DNA of 64,000 bases from Microvelia longipes (Eukaryota; Arthropoda; Insecta; Hemiptera; Veliidae), in contig JACMZG010000008.1 in NCBI GenBank assembly GCA_018340805.1, forward strand, positions 13,980,038 to 14,044,037, given 5' to 3'. The translations under genes and the position numbers were made by a program. This document shows, in pieces, positions 12,601 through 60,437 of this stretch (within the stretch, counting starts at the first letter, position 1; every line of letters starts with the position of its first letter). The notes beneath the pieces were generated by a model, which was not told the DNA's origin, ran no database searches, and saw nothing but the letters and a program-made list of their open reading frames with translations.

Positions 12601-15600
12601 CTCAGCTTTTATTGTAGGTATATAGGAAAAGTATTGTAAAAATTCGAGAATGAGATTTCATTAGAATATGTTTTAGGAGATTTAAAGATGATTTGAGTGG
12701 ATTTTATCATGTTGTTTGTCTATCAGTTTGTGTGAGAATGTAAATCACACATAAATCCTGATGTGTTGAAGCTTAACTAGGCAAAAGAATGAAACATGAT
12801 TTTACTTGTGCATTTTCAGACAATTTTTATTTTATATAAATATGATTTGTAGATATCATGGTTTATAAGAAGTCAAAATATAAATGTTGAATAATATCTA
12901 TTAGCAGTATAGCCTTTAAATTAAGTGGCTAAACTAACATTGGCTGGATATCTGTATACAATCTACCAGCTTGTTGGTCATCCTACCACTCTTACCTCAC
13001 CTCTCACAAAAAATGTAATATGACAATTTAACACCTTTGTATTGCACTTATTATTATGGAGTAATGTTATGGGTTGCAGTGTCGCCACTACATGATGTGC
13101 CTGTGGAATGCACTGCAGTTGTGGGTCTGTTGCTGTGTCGCTGTTTCTGTTATGCAGTTGCTCTGTACTTTACTTATACTTCCTCCAATTTTCTCTATAG
13201 GTAATAATTTTTCAAAATTGGTACATTTATTGAACAAAATTTAATGATTTTTACTTTTACTCATGTATTCCGTAGGTATTTAAATAGTATTGTGCTATCT
13301 GGATTTTTTTATGACTCCAGTAACCTTCACTAATGATTTAGCAAAAGTTTCGAAAATTCATAATATGCAGAAAAATTTGTCAATCAGTTTGAGATTTGGC
13401 ACACATGTAGTTAGTAAATGCCTTTTATTTTATTAATTTGAAGATATGTTGTGTTGATGTGTTGTTAGGTCAAGTACTGTGGCTATGTTGTATGGTGATA
13501 CCTCTGATGTCTATAACTCTTGTATTTGCACCAACATCTCCAAAAGTAATGCAGAGACCTGGAGCTAAGAACAATCATAGGGTTGATACTCAGGTAATTA
13601 TTTAAAATAGTGATACTTGTATCACATTCATAAAGTTAAAGTTTAAGATAGGGGACACAATATAATTGTGCGAGAGACACCTAGGAAATGTAACAAGCGA
13701 AATGCAATGCTACATCTGGGAACTGTTCCATCATTCAAATGATGTATGTTTTGCTTGCCATGCATGATAGCGGTAAGAGAGCACTGCTCATCTCTGGTAA
13801 ATACTTCACTTTATATTCTTCAGAATTAATTGAAGGTCAGAGTGAGTTCAGGCTCTGTCAGTGCCCTGATGAGTTAGACGTTACGAAACAGAGATGTAGC
13901 ATTGCATTTTGCTTGTTACATTTCCTAGGTGTCTCTCGCACAATTATATTGTGTCAACTATTCATATTTTGCAAAACTCGGTAGTATCAAATGATTTAAG
14001 ATAGTGTGCTCTGAAGCTGTGTTTTTTAATTTTTGTCAAGAGCCTGTTGTGCTCAAAATACAGTTTTATTATATTTGTGTTAAGGAGATAGTTTAGTCTA
14101 ACCTATGTAGCATACTAAACAGCATGTACTTAGTAAAATAATAAAAAGTATCTTCTCAAAATGAATATTTAGAAGTATCAACAGTAAAGCCATACATCCT
14201 TTAGTGTTAAATAAGGTCTCTTATTGTCTGAAGCCCTTATAGGCAGAAGCTGTTTAAGTCTCTAGACTACCTGCTGTTTTTTTTGAAGTCCATATATTGG
14301 CTGTTGCTGTGTTGTAATGTAATTTTCATTATTTCATTCATAAAATATTGAGTATGGGGAACCTCAGAACTTTTCCTTATCACATCAGATTCGCATTAGA
14401 ATATCCTTATCACTTTTCTTGTCTTTAGAATATACAAGTAGTTAAATTTATATAGCAACAGGTCTTCGAACTTGCTTCCCTCATCCTCAGATAGAAATTA
14501 CATCTGTTTCATTCCCAGCGGTCACCTGGCACTGAACACGCTCAGTGCTACTTAACTTTTATGATCCTACAAAAATCACAGATATACTTTTTGTTTTAAA
14601 ACAGAACTTGGTATACTTATTTACTACGTAAAGGTATACACTTGTACCGAATTTCAACTCAATAAGATCATTTTCTAATTTCTTACAATTTAAAAAAAAT
14701 GTACTCAAGTCATTTGATAACTATTGAAGTAATACTAATAATGAGATGAAATTTGGCCCATATGTTAGTCATGTACATGTGTGCCAAATCTCAATTGATC
14801 ACAGCATTTTTCCACGTTATATGGTTTTTCATAATTTTTGCTGAGTCGTTATTGCGGATTTATGATGTCATAAAACAATTATTTTCTGAATAGCACAACT
14901 AAACCTATAGGCTGATTTTTGTACAAAGTTTCAACTCTCTAACATAAGTACACTGGGAGCTATGATGATAACAGACAGACAACTTTGTGAAAACTACTCA
15001 GAAGGTCTTAAAACACCTGAAATGGCTAATTCCGGTGTCATCCTAGTTTTGGTTTTTTTCTAACACAATAATTTTCTTATATACCTTCGGTATAAATGAG
15101 GAAAAGTAAAAATATTAACTCTCATTTCTTCTTAGAACTTTTTACTTTTTATTATTTATTCTAGAAGCAGAATCATTTAGCTACAACAAAATATCATTTT
15201 GACCCAAATATACTAAGCTATGCCTGAGATAAGATTACATTCTTAATTAGGAGTTGACTCTTTGTGCATTGGTTTTAGCATAAAATATTTACAGGTAGGA
15301 GTGTTTATTCTATGGTGCTATGGAGGCAAGATGTTAGTGTCAGTATTAGTGATACCATTAATCTACACACTCACATTAACAGCAAACTGTCCGAAATTGG
15401 ATGCAAACCTGAATATAACGTGTCATCCCTTCCTGCCTCTGTCATTCCACACCAGCCTGCCTCCTCAGGTGTTTGCTCTTCCTCTCTACAGCTCTCAGAC
15501 TTTAGCCTTCACTCTAACTCTTCTACATTTAGGTAATTAATATTGTTAATATTTTTCATAAGTTCACTCATAATTGTGATAGCGGTTTTAAGTTCACTCA

Positions 15601-60319: not shown

Positions 60320-60437
60320 AAGTATAGTTATGTCAAAACGGGTTTTCAATACAACATAATATAGGTAAACCTCGATGCTGGTAAGAACGGGATAGTCTTG
60401 TCGTGAGATCTAAGGCTGGACGCCGGCACAAATTTTA

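Follow-up and report, generated by a model that had tools for sequence, protein, structure and literature searches.

A tandem, retrozyme-like repeat with a loop-less palindromic hammerhead stem I and Penelope-like insertion ends in an insect genome

Metazoan retrozymes carry type I hammerheads, as the excerpts of PMC7229834 and PMC7761336 available to us describe them. In the first of these sources Penelope-like elements (PLEs) are regarded as a "strong candidate" for moving animal retrozymes, on the basis of co-occurrence and shared traits, and the synthesis of tandem cDNA from circles is already proposed. For the Anolis PLE Poseidon, reverse transcription has been found to start at two adjacent internal RNA sites, with extension of both cut target strands, and the 30-40-bp 'tail' of Poseidon is the stretch between the two start sites (PMC11167929). 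Type III hammerheads are also on record in insects, namely in termite genomes, Drosophila pseudoobscura and other dipterans (PMC7936874, in excerpt), so that a type III arrangement in an arthropod is not the novelty that an initial annotation of the DNA studied here had taken it for; its statement that animal retrozymes are mainly of type I agrees with the sources cited above. Here we analyse a repeat of about 316 bp with one hammerhead core per unit, found in three partial copies in a 64,000-nt stretch of Microvelia longipes DNA (contig JACMZG010000008.1, positions 13,980,038 to 14,044,037, or C1361:13980038-14044037; hereafter, the window) and at many other places of the 664.6-Mb genome to which this stretch belongs. 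The repeat is probably a non-autonomous, retrozyme-like element, whose tandem RNA would be cut by means of a double hammerhead joined through stem I and which would have been inserted by a PLE-type enzyme.

A tandem repeat with a hammerhead core

The units are arranged head to tail, and when fragments of copies 1 and 3 were mapped on 30 loci, the order M-H-B-T recurred with a period of about 316 bp. With this length and a GC content of 41.8% (unit of locus L024), the repeat is comparable to metazoan retrozymes without long terminal repeats (non-LTR retrozymes), which consist of low-GC tandem units of ~150-450 bp with a hammerhead each. At least 182 stretches of the genome match a copy-1 query. 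The loci analysed were obtained from this search (30), from a search with the Rfam model RF00008 (20 more) and from matches to the GIY-YIG domain (20), plus further stretches.

The family majority core was derived from 57 aligned cores, that is, 56 of equal length among 74 distinct segments, together with copy 1 of the window; 17 length variants were left out. It reads CTCTGT, C, GGCGCC, CTGATGA, GTTA, GACG, TAAC, GAA and ACAGAG, which corresponds to the type III order: a stem III of 6 bp, a GUC site, CUGAUGA, a stem II of 4 bp and GAA. CUGANGA, GAAA, a UH cleavage site and stems II and III are all present, and the core holds the conserved letters (C3-A9, G12-A14, A15.1-U16.1 and C17). A strict type III descriptor (6 bp in stem III, 4 bp in stem II, complete core and site) is satisfied by the majority core and by 25 of the 74 distinct copies, and a relaxed one (5 and 3 bp) by 52 of them, while 128 Mb of second-order Markov sequence contained one strict and 25 relaxed matches by chance. 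In the window no strict match and two relaxed matches were found, the latter being copies 1 and 3. The complete majority core, the tandem units and the target duplications described below support the proposal of a dispersed small retrozyme-like element made in the initial annotation.

The covariance-model scan suggested in that annotation gave matches to RF00008 (Hammerhead_3) of up to 37.7 bits, below the gathering score of 48.5, and none to RF00163. In a cmscan of four loci, eight copies matched RF00008, six of them at 37.0-37.7 bits, with E values of 2.8e-5 to 4.4e-5 over all 4227 Rfam families, and two at 25.8 and 23.2 bits. Three inverted-repeat matches to microRNA (miRNA) models outrank RF00008 in the same scan; the miRNA matches in the window and in the loci are read as inverted-repeat artefacts. 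Of the 68 candidates scored in a genome search with RF00008, 20 were returned as matches, each of them in a locus of this repeat family; these do not represent the true top of the genome, since copies of 37 bits exist. RF00163, the type I model, rendered no match in the genome at E<=1 among 73 candidates scored. In the window no Rfam match reaches gathering; below it, copy 3 scores 29.5 bits with RF00008 (E 0.031) and copy 1 scores 24.9 bits (E 0.65), and copy 2 has no RF00008 match.

Insertion ends, Penelope-like elements and long arrays

A total of 60 loci or window copies were considered for the analysis of insertion ends, of which L029, L050, L061 and L062 were dropped as duplicates or covers, so that 56 insertions were read end to end. 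Outer ends were assigned to a short site S (unit positions 147-170, ca. 160) or to a long site T (195-210, ca. 203), which lie ~43 nt apart. Both outer ends face outwards at S or T in 34 of the 56 insertions (20 ST, 12 TS, one SS and one TT), with one end at each site in 32 of these 34; in the remaining 22, one end or both lie outside these sites or do not face outwards. Loci selected with RF00008 were also counted apart, because the DNA query held part of the structure of copy 1 itself, and nine of 19 were classifiable, eight mixed and one TT. Runs of at least 9 bp common to both flanks were detected in 18 of the 56 insertions, compared with 27 of 3080 swapped-flank controls, and the target duplication, where visible, measures 7-15 bp. 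The insertions are made up of inverted arms, and the inversion point, the lengths of the flank repeats and the number of hammerheads (up to 12) differ from one insertion to another. A seemingly constant total insertion length (junction x+y, permutation 0.00055) was discarded as a product of ascertainment: copy 1, which served as the query, has an inversion junction of its own, and the RF00008-selected loci vary in length.

The same genome contains at least 63 GIY-YIG (PF01541) matches over the cut-off, and in locus L071 a reverse transcriptase and a GIY-YIG domain share one frame. For two PLE families, A and B, end sites were set by eye from the same copies and then mapped on all 40 GIY-YIG loci. 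Their S and T sites are 39 and 42 nt apart, respectively. Out of 24 PLE matches, nine end at S, eight at T and seven elsewhere (mostly other subfamilies), and all five PLE loci with both ends known have one S and one T end. The paired end sites of PLE mobilisation, 30-40 nt apart and delimiting a tail, thus have their counterpart at S and T of the repeat. Because the retrozyme-like repeat and the PLEs of its own genome bear the same two-site signature, with a tail of ~43 nt in the former, a PLE-type enzyme appears to have made these insertions; this is the conclusion from the genomic sequence to which we give most weight. The pairing of S with T adds to the Anolis result rather than repeating it, since the authors of that study found no strand difference in start site.

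Close to the GIY-YIG frame, several PLE families carry hammerhead-like motifs of minimal type I, whose short ends after GAAA differ. They were found in L066, L069 and L071-L073 (family A), in L068, L079, L081, L084, L090 and L094 (family B), and in L063, L078, L091 and L102. The tail of the repeat unit, AAAACTCGGTAGT (window 13973-13985 and 57732-57744), resembles the 3' part of the hammerhead of the L078 PLE, GAAAGCTCGGTAGT, near position 2284 of that locus; the 9-mer CTCGGTAGT is common to the unit tail and the L078 PLE, and for the 8-mer CTCGGTAG about one chance occurrence is expected in the 128 kb scanned. This likeness could be a relic of a cognate PLE, or chance. Unit copies are also present in three of the first 20 GIY-YIG loci. 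They were considered as a sign of a cognate PLE, and this was rejected in favour of separate insertions because L066 has inverted arms of its own and the density of such copies is about that of the window. A further minimal type I hammerhead-like motif lies in the window at 31105-31141 (plus strand), inside a foldback at 30840-31200, with the order CCTG, CTGATGA, stem II, GAA, ACCGGT, C and CAGG. It occupies one arm of a large inverted repeat, the other arm bearing a degenerate mirror copy, is PLE-like, and has no Rfam match at E<=10.

The longest insertion (C518:10030233-10034004) spans 3.8 kb and contains 12 near-identical hammerheads spaced 315-317 nt apart. It reads as a T end, ten hammerheads on the minus strand, the inversion, two on the plus strand and an S end, with CTCAAGT common to both flanks, and suggests rolling-circle reverse transcription. 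Another region, C707:40299471-40304500, shows an S end followed by two opposed arrays; it may represent two insertions, because 1.07 kb of other sequence separates the arrays and the right end lies beyond the stretch read. Variants within loci were compared in 198 unit pieces of 55 loci, at non-CpG sites covered by at least three pieces, with pieces shuffled among loci as the control. Non-CpG variants common to all units of a locus amounted to 9, versus 0.5 after shuffling (maximum 3), and private ones to 232, versus 557. At site 173, three loci have G in every unit (12/12, 5/5 and 2/2), 28 have only T and one is mixed. Units of one locus therefore tend, as far as these variants go, to share one template sequence, as would be expected of a reverse transcriptase circling its template.

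Loop-less stem I and the double hammerhead

Between the cleavage site and the core there are only six letters, GGCGCC, a perfect palindrome without a loop, which is expected in six bases once in 64 by chance. A single core thus lacks a proper stem I, and the hairpin-closed stem I of type III hammerheads is absent. The initial annotation, which had overlooked this palindrome, described the motif as a type III hammerhead: the order of its parts is that of type III, but the motif is not an ordinary representative. Modelling indicates that two copies could combine into a nested double hammerhead, with GGCGCC pairing with GGCGCC as stem I and each stem III taking one strand from each copy. The predicted energy of this fold in trans is -25.5 kcal/mol, versus -28.0 for the cofold minimum and -18.4 for two monomer minima; with two tandem units as they occur in L024, 316 nt apart, the value is -100.6 and the minimum -104.7, a cost of 4.1. 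The motif could therefore make most sense as a double hammerhead, either within a tandem transcript or in trans. Within tandem RNA the topology of a unit is that of type I, loop III being formed by the entire unit, whereas the local order is that of type III, so the type label depends on the view taken.

The following course of events is proposed. Genomic arrays of ~316-bp units would be transcribed as tandem RNA, in which the GGCGCC of one unit would pair with that of the next as stem I, the stem III strands being exchanged between them. Cleavage at both GUC sites would release 316-nt monomers, and these would be ligated to circles, which, with one hammerhead each, could not easily recut themselves. 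A PLE-type enzyme would then cut both strands of the target, as the structure of the insertions suggests, and start reverse transcription at the two fixed RNA sites S and T (unit ~160 and ~203, respectively), generally with one of them used per target strand. Each arm might circle its template several times, and the arms would meet head to head, which would leave an inverted tandem insertion with one S end and one T end. The whole chain, from a hammerhead that works only as a double one joined through stem I, through the cutting of tandem RNA and a circle protected from recutting, to rolling-circle reverse transcription by a PLE on both strands from two sites, with inverted arrays of up to 12 units, is put forward tentatively, and with clearly less confidence than the explanation in its general form.

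A number of results weigh against this proposal. GGCGCC is retained in only 30 of the 57 aligned copies, the next most frequent forms being GGTGCC (8), AGCGCC (5) and GGCACC (4), mostly CpG changes. The double hammerhead lies above the computed minimum both in trans and in tandem, the gap to the minimum is larger in four of five decayed stem I variants, and the usual contact between loops I and II is impossible. Randomly reordered GGCGCC gave an equal overall gain in the cofolded dimer; the gain from palindromic dimerisation was for this reason rejected as evidence, and the energy counted was solely that of the double-hammerhead fold itself. Among the 57 copies (47 distinct), compensatory changes, which the initial annotation had expected to be informative about the stems, were limited to one pair and two cells altered on both sides (L031 and L040), not above shuffles, the two cells being in loci picked by a structure model, so covariation lends the stems no support. 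Nor does conservation of the hammerhead exceed that of the remaining unit: at non-CpG sites it is 0.8 percentage points more divergent (permutation 0.87), and CpG letters are the most variable of the unit. The best RF00008 score remains short of gathering. The number of variants that only part of the units of a locus share (23) is not clearly below that after shuffling (30.6, sd 5.5), so the one-circle reading is supported rather than proved, and a homogeneous tandem transcript would give a like pattern. As to the enzyme, no PLE similar in sequence to the unit was found, unit insertions aside, in the 40 GIY-YIG loci, 20 of which were read for only ~1.2 kb on one side, and in the Anolis study the two target strands showed no difference in start site, so that S/T pairing is neither predicted nor forbidden (PMC11167929). 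The lack of extra conservation in the hammerhead, on the other hand, agrees with neutral decay. Dead copies of a few sources are predicted to give this same pattern, which therefore neither proves nor refutes function.

Neutral decay without covariation would also be expected if the hammerhead were a fossil in a tandem repeat moved by PLEs, cleavage being irrelevant and tandem insertions arising from unprocessed tandem transcripts. In Anolis, hammerhead mutants leave insertion in vitro unaffected, and it is mainly unprocessed RNA that serves as substrate (PMC11167929). We consider this reading unlikely, although it is the most serious of the alternatives: the least damaged copies retain the complete core and the palindrome (25 occurrences were counted for the most frequent 74-nt hammerhead segment, although some of the loci overlap and one array accounts for several of them), and the units of the longest insertion are nearly clonal. 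Alternatively, each unit might cut itself as a monomer, in the manner of a classical type III hammerhead, with a 1-bp hairpin and a GCGC loop made by the six bases. The type III model of Rfam does align over its full length, and type III hammerheads typically have a stem II of 4 bp with a 4-nt loop, as here (PMC7936874, in excerpt). This too seems improbable, and somewhat more so than the preceding reading, given that the monomer with the 1-bp stem I is computed at -2.8 kcal/mol, worse than without any stem I (-5.0) and far from the minimum (-9.2), and that GGCGCC is the perfect palindrome that a shared stem needs.

Copy 1 taken alone, with its inverted repeats of 70 nt and its target duplication, would fit a foldback DNA transposon (miniature inverted-repeat transposable element), whose terminal inverted repeats would be the arms and in which the hammerhead would be a passenger. 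The variable inversion points and flank repeat lengths, the variable number of hammerheads per insertion and the compliance of the ends with the S/T rule of the PLEs of the same genome make this very improbable. Still less credible is a chance resemblance to a hammerhead, in spite of the missed gathering score and the lack of covariation, with a single strict chance match in 128 Mb, an E value of 2.8e-5 over all Rfam families and a motif whose setting, ~316-bp tandem units with ends like those of PLEs, is one in which hammerheads are to be expected. A retrozyme-like element cut through a stem-I double hammerhead and inserted by a PLE-type enzyme is, therefore, the explanation that we favour.

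Copies in the window and comparison with known systems

The three copies reported in the initial annotation were recovered at their places, on the plus, plus and minus strands, and all of them are partial, copies 1 and 3 being damaged and copy 2 decayed. Copy 1 (13648-13998, plus) is a composite of an inverted arm followed by a plus arm that bears the hammerhead and an internal deletion. The inverted arm (13648..13736, minus; L001 1509-1597) runs from unit position 166 down to 78, with its outer end at S, and the direct arm (13735..13998, plus; L001 1596-1859), with its outer end at T, comprises unit positions 192-316, 1-34 and 97-203, positions 35-96 being deleted; the 70-nt inverted repeats are 96% complementary. 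The insertion is flanked by the target-site duplication TTTAAGATAG at 13642..13651 and 13995..14004 (both plus), the longest run common to both flanks (10 bp, L001). Its hammerhead (13853..13893, plus; RF00008 match over 13852-13894) has the six stem III pairs of CTCTGT (13853-13858) with ACAGAG (13888-13893) that had been described, a predicted cleavage site after C 13859, AGTGCC as stem I (13860-13865), CTGATGA (13866-13872), a stem II with one mismatch (13873-13884) and GAA (13885-13887).

Copy 2 is a single arm (57542..57757, plus) of unit positions 304-316 and 1-203 that ends at T. Its hammerhead (57548..57588, plus) is decayed, with a GUU site, the first pair of stem II lost, G at position 15.1 and a broken stem III. 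Copy 3 (60146-60319, minus) lies between two copies of AAGTATAGTTAT, a target-site duplication of 12 bp set by eye (60134..60145 and 60320..60331, both plus). It consists of a single arm (60146..60308, minus) with its outer end at S and its inner end at CTGTC, directly before the cleavage site, followed by filler (60309-60319). The copy 3 hammerhead (60269..60311, minus) has the palindromic GGCGCC and a complete core, and the 5' strand of its stem III is partly filler; its stem II, claimed to be perfect, actually has 3 pairs and an A.C mismatch, against 4 pairs in the family majority. Elsewhere in the genome, two near-identical copies with changed stem III letters, L049 and L050 (C1361:83064807 and 83062204), lie in opposite orientation 2.6 kb apart and may represent a subfamily or a later duplication.

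Other features of the window include exons of a NO66-type JmjC gene; a near-perfect inverted repeat at 11285-11449, probably a foldback element, that triggers the miRNA model mir-3910 on both strands; an imperfect tandem repeat with a ~57-bp period at 46301-46814; and an open frame of 168 aa at 62698-63204 (minus), by eye a fragment like that of a long interspersed nuclear element (LINE) polyprotein, which matched no Pfam family. An insect host is indicated by 21 matches to the odorant-receptor family 7tm_6 above the cut-off, a family not known outside insects; the 14 control genomes, prokaryotic so far as they are named, have none.

Among the described systems, and as far as the excerpts cited portray them, metazoan non-LTR retrozymes (Cervera and de la Pena 2020, PMC7229834) are alike in their ~300-bp tandem low-GC units with a hammerhead per unit, in target duplications of more than 4 bp and in the presence of PLEs in the same genome. 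They differ in that their hammerheads are of type I, with contacts between loops I and II that the present motif lacks, whereas the latter follows the type III order and its stem I has no loop, and in that circular RNA has been demonstrated there and is only predicted here. Poseidon shares with it two start sites of reverse transcription ~30-40 nt apart, the extension of both strands, tandem insertions and a hammerhead (PMC11167929). PLEs, unlike the repeat, encode reverse transcriptase and GIY-YIG, for which a 316-bp unit is too short, and the hammerheads of PLE type belong to minimal type I. Plant LTR retrozymes have the type III order and repeated units (excerpts of PMC7761336), as well as a stem II of 4 bp with a 4-nt loop, typical of type III (excerpts of PMC7936874), but differ in their ~700-bp units, LTRs, 4-bp target duplications and looped stem I (PMC7761336), the unit length and target duplications of the present element being others. 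The hepatitis delta virus-like circular RNAs of termite and toad and the dipteran genomes also show type III order in animals, insects included, with an extra-long stem I and loop-loop pairing in their case; in the excerpts of PMC7936874 we found no description of them as tandem retrozymes.

The closest parallel to the proposed fold is provided by the dimeric type I hammerheads of newt and axolotl, Aedes and PLEs, in which a palindromic stem, too short for a monomer to form it, lets two motifs make up a double hammerhead (excerpts of PMC6155905, PMC3088659 and PMC7761336). It is through stem III that the two motifs are joined in newt and Aedes (PMC6155905, PMC3088659), whereas here it would be through stem I, the open strands being those of stem III. 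A double hammerhead sharing stem I was not found in the literature searched, part of it in excerpt, which does not establish its absence from print; a search on rolling-circle reverse transcription together with hammerhead and retrotransposon likewise rendered no paper, and the long near-clonal array makes this mode of synthesis directly testable. The insertion ends offer structural evidence on the mover, as the same two-site tail pairing occurs in the retrozyme-like repeat and in the PLEs of its genome. The element is thus retrozyme-like by its anatomy and mobilisation, yet it has neither the type I hammerhead of animal retrozymes nor the stem I hairpin of type III, and, if the proposed fold is true, it would represent a new permutation of the hammerhead, in which the palindromic stem shared by the double hammerhead is stem I.

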